Part shown: positions 27,833 to 36,438 of the stretch, one piece after another
How positions within the stretch are numbered: the stretch's first letter is position 1
Layout: every line of letters begins with the position of its first letter
Virus record (IMG/VR): IMGVR_UViG_3300042895_000263
Span: 1-37,609 of that record
DNA: 37,609 bases
Direction: 5' to 3' (one strand)
DNA from: a virus
The notes under the pieces: generated by a model
The model's input: only the letters and a program-made list of their open reading frames with translations
Told to the model about the DNA's origin: nothing
Databases searched by the model: none
Translations under genes and position numbers: made by a program

Positions 27833-30097
27833 GTGACAACTTATAGTCCAGATATTACGGAGTCCATCCCGTTAAACGTTGGAAATCCAACAAGTGCGGC
27901 TCTTTGGACAAACAACGCAGAAGACTATGACGTTGCAGTGGGTGGCTTGCCATTCTTCCTAGCACCTACAGACCAGAATCCTTATCAAAGAGAGACTGCT
28001 CCTTATCGTAAGGACCAGTTCGATGCTGCTTCTGAACCAGGTGAACAGTCATTGACTGGTTGGTGGATTCGTTCACAGTCATCTTTCCATGTTGGTAATG
28101 GTATCAAGTTCTATGACCCATCAGCAGGTGAGGCCACTAAGTATCGTTTTGCTGATTCACAAGGTGTGGATGTATGGACTAAAGGTGAAGTCAAACTTCT
28201 GAAAGATGTTACAGACGTACACGTTACAACTGGTGCGGTTGTAGGCACAGACCATCAGCACCCTAACCAGCACATCCGTTCCATTAAATGGAGTGGCGTT
28301 GATGCTGTATTGCTTCATGATGAGTTCGATGTAGACAAGATTTACCCATCAATTACTGTATCTATTAACAACAAAGCGCGTACTACTAACGTAGCAACCC
28401 TTACCACTACTGCAGCACACGGTCTTGCAGTTGGTATGACCATTGTAATAACAGGTGTCGATGCAACATTCAACGGTTCTTACCGTATAACAACCGTACC
28501 TACAACTACTACTTTTACTTATACAACAGGAACAAGCGGAACAATAGCATCCACTGCAGTATCTCCAGTAGGAACTGGTGTAACTAATCCAGTAATTCAC
28601 TACATTGACTACATCTCTGGCACTGACAAGAAAGTGTTTGCTATCTGCGATGATGGAATCAATGCTTACTGGATAACCAATAAAACAGTTGGTGGAAATC
28701 AACGCATTACGATGTTCAAGAAGCCACTATCAGGTGACTCCGTTACTGGAGCATCCAATCCATCTGCAACTGGCGATGTTACTCAGATGTTCCAAGATGC
28801 TAATATTGAAATTGTATATGCAAAGATGGAGTTCATCAAAGACCGTATTGTCCTATGTGTAAACAATCTAGTTTATGAGTTACCAACTAATGCAACTAGC
28901 CTTACAGGTGCAGGTGGTGGAACCCTAGTATATACAAATCCTAATACTAACTATCACTACACATCTGTTGCAGCATCTGGTCCTGCTATCTACACTGCGG
29001 GTCACTCAGGTATATATTCAACAATTCAGAAGTACACATTAAATGCTGCTACTGGTGCTATACCTACACTTGCTCAGGCCGTAGTGGCTGCTGAATTTCC
29101 TCCTGGTGAAATAGTTGAAAAACTATCTTATTATCTAGGGTATATGATGATTGGTACATCTAAGGGTGTCCGAGTTGCTGTAGTCAATGACCAAGACGGT
29201 TCACTAAGTTATGGACCTCTCATAGTAGAAACCAGTCAGCCAGTCTATGACTTTGCTGCTCGTGACCGTTTCGTGTGGTGCACAACAGGTATTGGTGCTT
29301 TAGATGCTGGCCTTATTCGTATTGACTTGAGTCAAAGTATTGAAAACGAACCACTACGGTTTGCTTATGCAAATGACCTACAGGTGACTCAGGTTGCGAC
29401 TCACTATACAACTGCAGTTAACTTTATTGGTACTACCAATCGTCTTGCTTTCTGTACAGAATTTCAAGTAACTGATGGCGCTATCTATCTTGAATCAGCA
29501 ACCGTGCTACGGGCTACTGGTTATGTAACTACTGGTGCTATCCGCTATGGAACGCTTGAGCCAAAGAACTTTAAGTTCTTACGTGCACGAGGTAGTTTCA
29601 CTAATGGTGCTATGGATATCTATTCAGTTGATTCTCTAGGTAATATTTACACAGTCATCACTTACAACTCTACAATTGGTACTCCTGAGTCTGCTACAAC
29701 TAACCCAGAAGGACCACAAGAGTACTTATCCTACAAGTTTACGCTCTCACGCAGTGCAGCCAATACCAGTCTAGGTCCTATATTTAAGGGCTATCAAGCA
29801 AAGGCTCTACCAGCAACAGAACGCCAACGAGTGATTCAGTTCCCTGTATGGTGTTTCGACGTAGAAACCGATAGATATAATGTGAAAACTGGATATGAAG
29901 GACGTGCGTGGGAGCGTATTCAAGAACTTGAGTCAATTGAAAAACTTGGCGATATTGTCAACTTCCAAGACTTTACTACAGGAGAAAGCGTGCAAGCCAT
30001 TATTGAGCGAGTAAACTTCAACCGCAAGACACCACCATCAGGCAAGTTTGATGGCTTTGGTGGCATGCTTACTATCACAGTTAGGACTGTCTTATAA
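27833..30097 (+). CDS. Large tail protein (754 aa), GTG start
   Basis: GTG 27833 is chosen because AAGGAG lies five bases upstream; the in-frame ATG 27812 has only the T run of the terminator before it. The protein is beta-rich from end to end: an N-terminal part with GGLPFFLAPTDQNPYQRET, an inserted AHGLAVG...GVDATFNGSYRITTV unit (about 195-220) of a kind often found in phage tail proteins, WD-like repeats of hydrophobic strands (YLGYMMIGTSKGVRVAVVND) and a C-terminal domain with ERQRVIQFPVWCFD. Probably a propeller-like tail hub, nozzle or spike. Downstream overlap is TAATG. Confidence 0.72.
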   Translation: MTTYSPDITESIPLNVGNPTSAALWTNNAEDYDVAVGGLPFFLAPTDQNPYQRETAPYRKDQFDAASEPGEQSLTGWWIRSQSSFHVGNGIKFYDPSAGEATKYRFADSQGVDVWTKGEVKLLKDVTDVHVTTGAVVGTDHQHPNQHIRSIKWSGVDAVLLHDEFDVDKIYPSITVSINNKARTTNVATLTTTAAHGLAVGMTIVITGVDATFNGSYRITTVPTTTTFTYTTGTSGTIASTAVSPVGTGVTNPVIHYIDYISGTDKKVFAICDDGINAYWITNKTVGGNQRITMFKKPLSGDSVTGASNPSATGDVTQMFQDANIEIVYAKMEFIKDRIVLCVNNLVYELPTNATSLTGAGGGTLVYTNPNTNYHYTSVAASGPAIYTAGHSGIYSTIQKYTLNAATGAIPTLAQAVVAAEFPPGEIVEKLSYYLGYMMIGTSKGVRVAVVNDQDGSLSYGPLIVETSQPVYDFAARDRFVWCTTGIGALDAGLIRIDLSQSIENEPLRFAYANDLQVTQVATHYTTAVNFIGTTNRLAFCTEFQVTDGAIYLESATVLRATGYVTTGAIRYGTLEPKNFKFLRARGSFTNGAMDIYSVDSLGNIYTVITYNSTIGTPESATTNPEGPQEYLSYKFTLSRSAANTSLGPIFKGYQAKALPATERQRVIQFPVWCFDVETDRYNVKTGYEGRAWERIQELESIEKLGDIVNFQDFTTGESVQAIIERVNFNRKTPPSGKFDGFGGMLTITVRTVL

Positions 30098-30294
30098 TGA
30101 CCGCAGTAGATTGGGCAGCACTAATAGTCTCAGTTACAACAATTGCAGCAGCGTTTGCTGGTGGAGTTCGTTGGCTGGTAAAGCATTATCTGTATGAATT
30201 GAGACCTAACGGGGGCGGTTCCGTTAAAGACCAAGTGAATCGATTGGAAGCCCGTGTTGATGAAATTTACTTACTCCTTTGCGAGAAAAAGTAG
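30097..30294 (+). CDS. Small membrane protein with coiled-coil tail, holin-like (65 aa)
   Basis: One hydrophobic helix (about residues 6-28, WAALIVSVTTIAAAFAGGVRWL) followed by a basic/polar linker and a short coiled coil (VKDQVNRLEARVDEIYLLLCEKK). This is the layout of small phage membrane proteins found in lysis cassettes. It overlaps the next gene by 35 bases in another frame. A holin, antiholin or membrane anchor are all possible; being first of a run of membrane proteins before the endolysin supports a lysis role. Confidence 0.65.
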   Translation: MTAVDWAALIVSVTTIAAAFAGGVRWLVKHYLYELRPNGGGSVKDQVNRLEARVDEIYLLLCEKK

Positions 30295-31984
30295 AGTACT
30301 AGCCGCATTTTCTATTGTTATAGGAACATCTTTATTTATGCCTTTTGCCTTTGCTGAGCAAACAGGACCTGCAACTATTACTTGCGCTAAAGAAGATGGA
30401 ACTGAAAAAACAACAAATGTTAATTGGAACAATGCAAACATTTATTTTAAAGATAAAGGTGACATTGCTCGTTTATTTTGCGAAGGTGGGCATTCTGGTG
30501 GATGGCCTATATTTGTAAGCACATCAGTTCCTGATGGTCCGTTTCGATATTATGGTGGGATAGTTCCTATTCCCGTTGAACCCACACCTGAGCCCGAACC
30601 TTCTCCAACTCCATTGCCAGTTCTGTCTCCCTCAGAGACTGCGACTGTTTTAGTCGAACCAACTCCAACTCTGAGTCCTGTACCCTTACCTCAGCCGAGT
30701 CCAAAGCCGACTGTAGAACCAAGTCCTGTGCCTCAGCCCGAACCAACTCCGACTCCAACTTCTTTACCAACACCTGATACATCTGCACCTTCTGTGCCAG
30801 AGACTTCGACTGTGACTGTGCAGCCAATTCCCGTTCCAATCGTTTCACCCGTGGCAACGCCGAGCAATAGCCCAGAACCAACCCCAACAATAGAGCCAAC
30901 GCCCCAGCCCCAACCCACTCCTGAATCATCTAATCTTCCTTCCGTTGATACCAGTACAGTAACATCAATACTGCCAGAGCAACCGATAAACCCAGAACCA
31001 TTACCTACTCCTCTTCCTGTTGAACCAACACCGAGTCCAGAACCTGTTCGTGAACCAACTCCTACACCAACACCAGAGTCTGAATCTACGCCTGCACCTA
31101 CACCAGAACCAGAGCCAACTCCAGCGCCAGAACCTACTCCTCAACCTTTACCTTTACCGATTCCCGCACCCGAGCCAGAACAGACTCTACCTCCAGTGCA
31201 AGAACCTTTACCTCAACCTGAGCCATTGCCAGAGCAGCCCGAGCCTCTAGAACCTGAGCCTTTACCCGAGCCTCCAACTCCCGTAGAAGAGCCTCCAGTG
31301 CCTCCTGAGGAGCCTCCTGTGGCTGTTGAACCGCCTCCTGAAGAGGAGGAACCACCCGTAGATGAGCCACCTAGCCCTGCTCCTGAGCCTGAGACTGAGG
31401 TTGCACCTGAACCTGAAGAAGAGGCTCCTGCAGAGGAAGTTCCTGCTCCTGTAATTCCTGAACCTGCACCTGAACTTGCACCTGAACCTCCTATGGTCGC
31501 AAGTCCTAATGCTACCACAGAAGAAAAAGAAATTGTTGCCGAAGCAATCATTGAAGCAGCAAATGGTGCTCCTGTGACTGCACAAGCAATCCAAGAAGCA
31601 GGTCTTGAGTACAAAGACTTGCCACCTGCTACACCTGTAGAAGTCCGTGAGGATGAGAATGGCAATGAAGTTGTCATCACAGCAGAGGTAGCAGCAGCAT
31701 TGGTAGTTCTTGAAAGTCCTGCTGAACTTCTAACTGCAATCTTTAATGACCCAGGTCAAGCACTTCTTGCTATTGCAAGTATTGGTGCTGATATGTCAGA
31801 TGAAGAAAGAGAAGAATCAGAAAAAATTATTGTTGCATCTGTTATTGCTGGTCAAGCCGCCGTTAATGCGGCAGGCATGGCAGCAGCAGCAGCCACTACC
31901 AGAACCCCGTCTGGTGGCGGTACAACTGGCGGAGGCGGAGCCTCTGCTGGTGAATCTAAAGCCGTAAGGAGACGCAAGCCTTGA
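30260..31984 (+). CDS. Exported proline-rich repeat protein (574 aa)
   Basis: ATG 30260 (GGAAG ten bases upstream; GTG 30254 and TTG 30257 are in-frame alternatives) starts a clear Sec signal peptide: basic SFARKSR, hydrophobic VLAAFSIVIGTSLFMPF and AFA before EQ (cleavage after about residue 32). A small domain with two Cys (42 and 74) follows, then about 320 residues of Pro/Glu/Thr/Ser repeats (PEPTP, PEPLP, PEEPP), then a helical Ala/Glu-rich domain (about 425-560) and a Gly-rich end with VRRRKP. No catalytic motif, LPxTG or lipobox. Such a rod could span the cell wall. Placed inside the lysis cassette; function unknown. Confidence 0.8.
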   Translation: MKFTYSFARKSRVLAAFSIVIGTSLFMPFAFAEQTGPATITCAKEDGTEKTTNVNWNNANIYFKDKGDIARLFCEGGHSGGWPIFVSTSVPDGPFRYYGGIVPIPVEPTPEPEPSPTPLPVLSPSETATVLVEPTPTLSPVPLPQPSPKPTVEPSPVPQPEPTPTPTSLPTPDTSAPSVPETSTVTVQPIPVPIVSPVATPSNSPEPTPTIEPTPQPQPTPESSNLPSVDTSTVTSILPEQPINPEPLPTPLPVEPTPSPEPVREPTPTPTPESESTPAPTPEPEPTPAPEPTPQPLPLPIPAPEPEQTLPPVQEPLPQPEPLPEQPEPLEPEPLPEPPTPVEEPPVPPEEPPVAVEPPPEEEEPPVDEPPSPAPEPETEVAPEPEEEAPAEEVPAPVIPEPAPELAPEPPMVASPNATTEEKEIVAEAIIEAANGAPVTAQAIQEAGLEYKDLPPATPVEVREDENGNEVVITAEVAAALVVLESPAELLTAIFNDPGQALLAIASIGADMSDEEREESEKIIVASVIAGQAAVNAAGMAAAAATTRTPSGGGTTGGGGASAGESKAVRRRKP

Positions 31985-32148
31985 AAATATTAAGAGACAT
32001 GGTTGACCAACTTTGGACACTGCTTGGCATGTTCATTGCATGGGTTGTTCTTGATGGAAGTGCCAAGACAGTAGTTGGCTATGCCATTGGTGGAACACTT
32101 ATTGCCTGGGCAATCACATACCCACTACGTAACCCGAAGGACGAATAA
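31981..32148 (+). CDS. Small two-helix membrane protein, TTG start (55 aa)
   Basis: TTG 31981 overlaps the upstream stop; AAGGAG lies ten bases before it, inside the end of the proline-rich gene. Two hydrophobic helices (LWTLLGMFIAWVVL and VVGYAIGGTLIAWAI) flank a short polar turn, with charged ends, so a helical hairpin in the membrane is expected. The stop shares a base with the next ATG. Holin or holin partner is the likeliest role, given the position two genes before the endolysin. Confidence 0.68.
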   Translation: MKILRDMVDQLWTLLGMFIAWVVLDGSAKTVVGYAIGGTLIAWAITYPLRNPKDE

Positions 32149-32390
32149 TGGACACATTTAAAAGTGTAATAATGAGAATCTTTGCTGTTATTGCAGCAGA
32201 ATCTCTTGGAGTTATTGGTGCTGGTTCCTTGGTAGGTATCGAAGTATGGCAAGCAGGAGTATTGGCAGGTGCACTAGGTGCAGCCCGCGTACTTGAGACT
32301 TTAGCCCGCTTCTACCTAGCAGACGGAAGCCTGACATCAGAAGAAATCAACGCAGCCTTTGCTAAGGTTGACAAGAAAGCGAGTGAATAA
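32148..32390 (+). CDS. Putative holin (80 aa)
   Basis: A mostly hydrophobic first half (IMRIFAVIAAESLGVIGAGSLV and VWQAGVLAGALGAARVLETLA) is followed by a charged tail (EEINAAFAKVDKKASE). Two membrane-spanning segments, size and location directly upstream of the endolysin with TAATG coupling are typical of holins, which open the membrane at a set time to release the endolysin. Family not identified by name; the neighbouring 55-residue protein is the rival candidate. Confidence 0.65.
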   Translation: MDTFKSVIMRIFAVIAAESLGVIGAGSLVGIEVWQAGVLAGALGAARVLETLARFYLADGSLTSEEINAAFAKVDKKASE

Positions 32391-32899
32391 TGGGACAAAG
32401 AAACGACTTCATCAAAACTGCAAGAGCAGAAATTGGTGTAATCGAAGGACCTAAGGACAACGAAACCAAGTACGGAGCCTTTACTAAGGCTAACTTCCTA
32501 CCTTGGTGTGGTTCTTTTGTGAACTGGTGTGCTAACGAGGTTGGCTTGAAGATTCCTTCATGCGTATCAACTGTTGTTGGTGCATCTGCATTCATCAAGA
32601 AGGGTCAGTGGGAAAAGGCTGAGGAAGCCACACCACTACCAGGAGATGTTGTCTTCTTTGATTTCCCGAACGACGGCGTAGACCGAATCTCACATGTTGG
32701 GATTGTGGTCAGGGACAATGGCGACGGTACTGTTACCTGCATCGAAGGCAATACTGCCCCAGATAAAAAGGGTGACCAGCGCAACGGAGGGCAAGTATGC
32801 CTAAAGAAGCGTGCTTACAAGAAGAAGAACGGGCCTGCCTTAAAGAAATCTGCTGCAGTAGTTGTGGTAGGATTCGGCAAGCCTGTATTTAAGTCATAA
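32390..32899 (+). CDS. Endolysin with CHAP domain (169 aa)
   Basis: Cleaves host peptidoglycan at the end of infection (amidase or endopeptidase). CHAP-type motifs: catalytic Cys40 in PWCGSFVNWC, His102 in ISHVGIV and the acidic/polar third residue in CIEGNT (E119 or N121); also PLPGDVVFFD, the usual strand before the His. No signal peptide, so it depends on a holin. The C-terminus is a short Lys-rich stretch (RAYKKKNGPALKKS) rather than a standard wall-binding domain, which makes it a minimal, single-domain enzyme. Confidence 0.9.
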   Translation: MGQRNDFIKTARAEIGVIEGPKDNETKYGAFTKANFLPWCGSFVNWCANEVGLKIPSCVSTVVGASAFIKKGQWEKAEEATPLPGDVVFFDFPNDGVDRISHVGIVVRDNGDGTVTCIEGNTAPDKKGDQRNGGQVCLKKRAYKKKNGPALKKSAAVVVVGFGKPVFKS

Positions 32900-32928
32900 G
32901 ACTTTTATACTTGAAAAAAGGAGAACCA

Positions 32929-33117
32929 ATGGATATCAATACACTTAAGCAAGTCTCGTTGTCATATGCTCGTGCAGCAGGTGCAGCGGTAGTTGCGATG
33001 TACCTAGCAGGAGAGACAGACCCTAAGAAGTTGGCTTACGCCTTCGCAGCAGGTTTTATCGGTCCAGTTGCTAAGTACTTCGACAAGTCAGCGAAAGACT
33101 TCGGTTTGACCAAGTAG
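32929..33117 (+). CDS. Small holin-like membrane protein (62 aa)
   Basis: ATG 32929 follows AAAAGGAGAACCA, a strong site; the earlier TTG 32911 in frame lacks one. Two short Ala/Gly-rich hydrophobic segments (ARAAGAAVVAMYLAG and KLAYAFAAGFIGPVA) are separated by a charged turn (ETDPKK), with a basic end (KSAKDFGLTK). Small proteins of this form occur next to endolysins in actinophages and may be holins or membrane regulators. Its TAG stop lies inside the first downstream hairpin. Confidence 0.65.
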   Translation: MDINTLKQVSLSYARAAGAAVVAMYLAGETDPKKLAYAFAAGFIGPVAKYFDKSAKDFGLTK

Positions 33118-33178
33118 GCTAAAGCCTACAAACTAGCCCCTCATTTTACTAGCAATAGTAGAGTGGGGGGCTATTTTG
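33114..33178 (+). terminator. Tandem hairpin terminator closing the late/lysis operon
   Basis: First GTAGGC-TAAA-GCCTAC (33114-33129), then a long stem of 18 pairs including G-T pairs (TAGCCCCTCATTTTACTA with TAGTAGAGTGGGGGGCTA, loop GCAA, 33134-33173) followed by TTTTG. It faces the leftward FmdB-like gene ending at 33305, so it may stop transcription from both sides. Confidence 0.85.
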
Positions 33179-36006: not shown

Positions 36007-36438
36007 ATGAAACTAACAACATATGCTTGGATAATGGCTGCTGTAGTCTTTGTGGGAACTTTGCCTCACGCTGTGGGTGCGATGTTTTTGGAAAGACAAA
36101 TAGCAATCAAAGAGAATTGCGCTAAGCCAATCTTTGGTGTAGTAGCAATATCCGAGATGAAGAAGATGGCAAAATGGATTGCAAAGGGCAAAGTCCTGGA
36201 GCAATACAAGAGTAATCATGAGTGGAAGTCACTCTTTACTCTATGGAACAGGGAGTCTCGCTGGGATTACACGGCGAACAATCCTCGTTCATCTGCTTAT
36301 GGAATACCTCAGATGCTTAATATGCCAGAGAATACTCCAATGAATAAGCAGATTGACTTAGGTCTCAAATATATCAAGCACCGTTACGGCAGTCCATCAA
36401 AGGCTTTGGCCTTTCATAATCGCAACGGCTGGTATTAA
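36007..36438 (+). CDS. Membrane-anchored lytic transglycosylase-like protein (143 aa)
   Basis: An N-terminal hydrophobic segment (about 6-27, YAWIMAAVVFVGTLPHAVGAMF) acts as a signal or anchor. The C-terminal half reads WKSLFTLWNRESRWDYTANN, then SSAYGIPQML and LKYIKHRYGSPSKALAFHNRNGWY: the ES-x-W-N-P-x-S-AYG-x-PQ arrangement of SLT/goose-lysozyme-like transglycosylases, with the Glu of NRESRW as catalytic acid. It should act on peptidoglycan outside the membrane. Unusual in a replication operon; GAGGAG precedes ATG 36007. It could help lysis, or weaken or remodel the wall during infection. Confidence 0.82.
   Translation: MKLTTYAWIMAAVVFVGTLPHAVGAMFLERQIAIKENCAKPIFGVVAISEMKKMAKWIAKGKVLEQYKSNHEWKSLFTLWNRESRWDYTANNPRSSAYGIPQMLNMPENTPMNKQIDLGLKYIKHRYGSPSKALAFHNRNGWY

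Follow-up and report, generated by a model that had tools for sequence, protein, structure and literature searches.

A stalk protein with exchangeable heads and a small membrane partner form an accessory cassette in viruses of freshwater actinobacteria

The stalk gene and its neighbourhood

The window (the whole 37.6 kb stretch of DNA analysed here, an IMG/VR virus record) has a GC content of 44.8% and encodes a large terminase, a portal and a major head protein. Rfam and tRNA searches of the window gave no matches. The locus consists of the following features, with the parts of the stalk protein listed below its gene.

30097..30294, +: upstream 65-aa membrane protein (phrog_9869), overlapping the start of the stalk gene
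30260..31984, +: stalk protein gene, 574 aa, based on its ORF, purifying selection and a family covering at least 441 viral contigs
30260..30355, +: Sec signal peptide (residues 1-32), with a hydrophobic core and an A-x-A site
30356..30571, +: two-Cys head domain (residues 33-104, 72 residues), with Cys42 and Cys74
30572..31507, +: Pro/Glu/Thr stalk (residues 105-416, 312 aa)
31493..31798, +: conserved C-terminal domain (CTD, approximately residues 412-513)
31799..31894, +: C-terminal helix with a hydrophobic stretch (residues 514-545), a likely membrane anchor
31895..31981, +: Gly-rich basic tail ending in VRRRKP, predicted to be cytoplasmic
31981..32148, +: the partner, a 55-aa two-helix membrane protein whose TTG start overlaps the stalk stop
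32148..32390, +: 80-aa phrog_26427 protein, often but not always a neighbour of the partner
32390..32899, +: CHAP endolysin (Pfam PF05257, 4e-12; phrog_21357), a neighbour only
32926..33117, +: 63-aa holin-like membrane protein, a neighbour only, still present where relatives are without the pair
33134..33173, +: predicted intrinsic terminator (18-pair stem and TTTT; consensus match only), closing the late unit

The stalk gene starts at ATG 30260, with an additional in-frame GTG at 30254. At the composition of the window, 574 codons without a stop would arise by chance with a probability of 7e-15, and the longest frame over 300 shuffles was 238 codons, compared to 574 for the stalk ORF. The gene shares 35 nt with the upstream 65-aa ORF and 4 nt with the downstream 55-aa ORF. 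The small overlapping membrane ORFs on both sides noted in the initial annotation are therefore present, and co-translation is supported. The 65-aa phrog_9869 protein is a backbone gene outside the pair and is kept in relatives without it. The phrog_26427 family is labelled as a nuclease, yet its 80-aa product resembles a small membrane protein, so this label may be wrong.

The signal peptide is predicted to end around residue 32 (ARKSRVLAAFSIVIGTSLFMPFAFA, followed by EQ), and the N-terminal segment is hydrophobic and has an A-x-A-type site in all 102 distinct full-length relatives. Cys42 and Cys74 of the head (structure model with a pLDDT of 79) are the only Cys residues in the window protein and are both invariant in 35 relatives. 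Pro accounts for 37% of the stalk residues, Glu for 17% and Thr for 11%, with zero Cys. The CTD alignment (A2) holds 71 sequences with 51-91% identity, and Cys is absent from the 14,926 residues of the family CTDs. An invariant Cys pair in the head, with none in the CTD, fits an extracytoplasmic protein. The C-terminal 160 aa or so are predicted to be helical with one beta-hairpin and a final 32-residue helix (model with a pLDDT of 70). In 102 out of 102 relatives, the KD19 of the C-terminal helix is 1.57 or higher and the net charge of the last 9 residues is +2 or more. The median dN/dS among relatives is 0.23 for the head, 0.17 for the CTD and 0.13 for the partner, indicating purifying selection. 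As such, the ORF and the build first described for it (signal peptide, two-Cys domain, Pro-Glu-Thr rod and helical C-terminus) are confirmed, with a rod of 312 residues.

No family match to the stalk protein was found in Pfam, PHROGs, NCBIfam or PADLOC, and sub-threshold Pfam matches such as Ig_mannosidase (E 0.058) were judged to be due to chance. Fold searches with the head and the CTD against the PDB gave nothing at an E-value of 0.001 or better, while PDB profile searches gave chance-level matches only. The literature searched, an incomplete set without supplementary tables, held no account of this protein. The initial remark that it is unlike any standard lysis component is supported.

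Pairing, exchangeable heads and spread of the family

The partner has two hydrophobic helices with charged ends, apparently forming a hairpin with a short invariant loop, and matches no holin family in PHROGs. Its core is almost invariant (QxWTxLGM..AWVVLDGSAK), with 16 core positions identical across 89 distinct partner sequences. In all 152 loci for which 250 bp or more of downstream sequence are available (approximately 138 distinct contigs), the partner lies directly 3' of the stalk gene, and its start overlaps or abuts the stalk stop in 148 of these. Conversely, the CTD is found directly upstream of 228 of the 232 partner ORFs in the loci fetched. The remaining four are two contig ends with the tail of the CTD visible, one contig starting at the partner and one locus interrupted by a second exported ORF. 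The distances of CTD and partner correlate (Spearman 0.47), compared to -0.06 to 0.15 for the partner and other neighbours; the correlation for CTD and endolysin is 0.40. It is thus well supported that the real unit is the stalk gene plus its 55-aa partner, in an obligate pairing. In L191 (270-700), the stalk gene and the partner are separated by a second small exported ORF that is rich in Cys and Pro and has VDKCPEFCPP repeats.

By sequence, the heads of the 102 distinct full-length proteins form five classes, all on one CTD: two-Cys (48), beta-type (42), PA14 (7), a class of four and a single protein. PA14 passes the Pfam cut-off in both L069 and L080 and was not detected by Pfam in the head of the window protein. 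The two-Cys head is joined to the CTD within one ORF in 74 out of 75 complete cases, the lone exception being L382, and appears, by sequence, to be found only in this family. In L382 (940-1614), the stalk ORF stops within the proline repeats while the partner is present, reflecting either a frame error in the assembly or a broken copy. A copy of the phage's own tail fibre was also considered as the source of the head; a sequence-level match is absent from the flanks. Mimicry of the receptor-binding protein of the same phage is unsupported, since none of the heads is similar at this level to a neighbouring tail protein.

Most stalks are proline-rich. Those of L069, L071, L076 and L080 are rich in Ala and Glu and, based on this composition, are probably helical. 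At full extension, the quartiles of reach are 57-82 nm for proline stalks versus 42-67 nm for the four putatively helical ones, a similarity that looks as if reach outweighs sequence. The stalks of the two-Cys relatives measure approximately 50-120 nm when fully extended, in line with the earlier suggestion that the rod could span the peptidoglycan.

A protein scan with the stalk protein retrieved 163 relatives. The scans with the CTD alignment and with the partner alone gave at least 441 and at least 576 viral contigs, respectively. The CTD occurs once per record in 12 out of 12 records of 40-127 kb. No relative of the CTD was found in 84,980 species genomes, and neither the CTD nor the partner has one in 50,697 cultured-phage records. 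Both are also missing from 166 genomes of one actinobacterial order, a search without positive control in what is perhaps not the true acI order. The family is therefore restricted to viruses in the databases searched. The search for the terminal domains in other genomes, proposed together with the initial annotation, thus yielded, for the CTD, viral contigs and no cellular species genomes. That annotation is partly supported by these results; it missed the obligate partner, the head as an exchangeable module and the large virus-only family.

Regarding the hosts, WhiB, an actinobacterial marker, is encoded by 12 out of 12 relatives tested and absent from the window; its presence in these relatives points to actinobacterial hosts. 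In L255, a contig titled MAG Bifidobacterium breve, WhiB is close to that of Nanopelagicales MAGs, and the title is probably wrong. The viruses carrying the family range from approximately 37 to 127 kb, and their backbones have at least two terminase types. Genes for Hsp20 and WhiB flank the pair in a 112 kb relative, and in L146 a terminase of a different family (phrog_2) lies near it. This occurrence on different phage backbones indicates an accessory unit.

Phages without the pair

By terminase, the Planktophila phages LanE43AprE7 (E7) and F5 (OX376640, OX376641; PMC10202952) were found to be the closest cultured relatives, with 58% TerL identity to the window, the same gene order and GC contents of 44.8% and 44.7%. 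At the homologous site, both phages lack the stalk gene and the partner and have a different endolysin. In E7, a single ORF separates the shared membrane ORF from the holin-like ORF; it encodes an endolysin, assigned as M15-like by eye from its motifs. The endolysin is thus swapped at the same site, being CHAP in the window (32390-32899) and M15-like in E7 (L287:30698-31201). The window also has a transglycosylase-like ORF at 36007-36438 (phrog_12661), and the E7 relative of this ORF, on the opposite strand at L287:37610-38026, has a signal-peptide-like stretch at its start. The cultured Planktophila phage records L286 and L287 are filed, unannotated, as 'Caudovirales sp. ct2KA10'.

Both pair genes are also missing at this site in 67 out of 70 metagenomic relatives sharing the membrane ORF, these 70 being the ones with enough sequence among 80 fetched, in a sample drawn with E7 as lead and biased towards it. 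In the pair-less relatives inspected, an endolysin and a holin-like gene directly follow. The cultured Planktophila phages lyse their host (PMC10202952). As these lytic, collinear phages and 67 of the 70 relatives do without the pair, it can be considered accessory.

Proposed function and alternatives

Based on the computed anatomy, pairing and accessory status, the stalk protein and its partner very probably form a membrane-anchored surface display unit, for which we infer the following topology. The stalk protein would be exported via Sec with the two-Cys head leading, the proline-rich stalk would reach outward through the wall, and the C-terminal helix and basic tail would stop in the membrane. 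There, the CTD might bind the 55-aa two-helix partner, which would hold or gate the stalk protein and be made in step with it through translational coupling. The displayed head might bind a ligand on the host surface, the most likely one being the receptor or glycan that incoming phages use. Such binding could block the adsorption or DNA entry of competitors and could also prevent the loss of progeny on the same cell or its debris. The five head classes on a single CTD, PA14 among them, the similar reach of both stalk types and the single copy per record speak for this picture.

As a leading but tentative reading, this late accessory cassette displays a membrane-anchored stalk on the infected cell and excludes or masks that cell against other phages. 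Exclusion or receptor masking as the actual purpose of the display is likewise put forward with reserve. The initial annotation had suggested superinfection exclusion or an infected-cell surface protein, and this is still the best guess for a function that we infer from the features above. Like known superinfection-exclusion proteins the stalk protein is phage-encoded, and a location in the envelope is predicted from its signal peptide and C-terminal hydrophobic helix. No match to a known superinfection-exclusion protein was obtained in Pfam, PHROGs, NCBIfam, PADLOC or the PDB. Points against this reading are the correlation of the CTD with the endolysin, the missing PDB fold matches for the two-Cys head and the CTD, heads unlike neighbouring tail proteins in sequence, and the late placement, which would confine any effect to a late stage at which exclusion is of less value.

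Llp of T5 and Ltp of TP-J34 are phage superinfection-exclusion proteins. SieA of P22 is another (PMC10883804). These proteins block other phages and resemble the stalk protein in being phage-encoded and exported or membrane-located. However, they are small lipoproteins or integral membrane proteins with no long stalk, swappable heads or invariant partner. CwpV of Clostridioides difficile is a cell-surface protein guarding the cell against phage (PMC4737114). It differs in being a bacterial gene to which no relation was found, whereas the stalk protein is encoded by the phage together with a small membrane partner.

A broader idea, drawing on the computed modularity and spread and held more loosely, is a universal platform. 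Unrelated phages of freshwater actinobacteria would mount exchangeable binding heads, on proline or helical stalks, on the invariant partner and docking domain, and the head displayed on the living infected cell might either control phage access or signal lysis.

The display unit might also be an adhesin of the infected cell, its head binding cells, particles or glycans to bring about lysis near new hosts or escape from grazing. The PA14 domain of yeast Flo adhesins binds glycans. In these adhesins (PMC8621652), a PA14 head is carried on a long stalk, as in the seven PA14-class proteins among the 102 relatives. Long stalks with PA14 or other beta-type heads are thus adhesin-like in build, and heads vary while anchor and partner are fixed. 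However, Flo adhesins are wall-anchored host proteins, and the head of the window protein is neither PA14 nor any other known adhesin domain. As the hosts are free-living plankton and a protein made late in a lytic infection has only a short time in which to act, we regard adhesion as unlikely.

A role as a sensor for lysis timing seems less probable again. Here, the partner would be a holin-like pore held closed or triggered by the stalk protein, while the head senses external phage or the state of the envelope. The lysis-inhibition pair RI/T of T4 likewise combines an exported sensor with a membrane protein, T being a one-helix holin with a periplasmic domain. This pair has no stalk, however, and belongs to the lysis machinery. 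The short invariant loop of the partner hairpin, predicted to face the exported CTD, would suit a sensor, and the late unit includes an endolysin in many phages. Nevertheless, the endolysin is kilobases away from the pair in some phages, and pair-less relatives retain an endolysin and another holin-like gene, with the cultured ones lysing their host with a different lysis set. A lysis component as the main role was rejected in view of the accessory status. The location 'inside the lysis cassette' that was initially reported therefore holds by position and does not extend to a demonstrated role in lysis, and the suggested function in wall disruption is unsupported.

It is very unlikely that the stalk protein is a virion component, e.g. 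a fibre, with an N-terminal hydrophobic stretch that does not serve as a signal peptide. The gene lies just downstream of the tail genes and the family has beta-type domains, but the consistent signal peptide, the C-terminal helix with its basic tail and the tie to a membrane protein argue against this. Moreover, the protein is missing from collinear, infectious cultured phages and matches no tail or fibre family in PHROGs. Finally, a wall-disrupting or spanin-like part bridging the membrane and the wall or outer layer, as a membrane-anchored rod close to an endolysin might suggest, is least credible given an accessory pair with variable heads, the lack of an enzymatic domain in Pfam and PHROGs, and actinobacterial hosts (based on WhiB) without the outer membrane that spanins disrupt.

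The acI group of freshwater actinobacteria is abundant in lakes, and the isolation of its first phages is recent (PMC10202952). The cultured phages without the cassette, together with their host, offer a test bed. The near-invariant partner with its swappable heads makes for a testable system, in terms of the ligands of the heads and of the exclusion of rivals versus lysis timing. A cassette common to hundreds of freshwater actinobacterial viruses points to a shared selective pressure at the surface of the infected cell.
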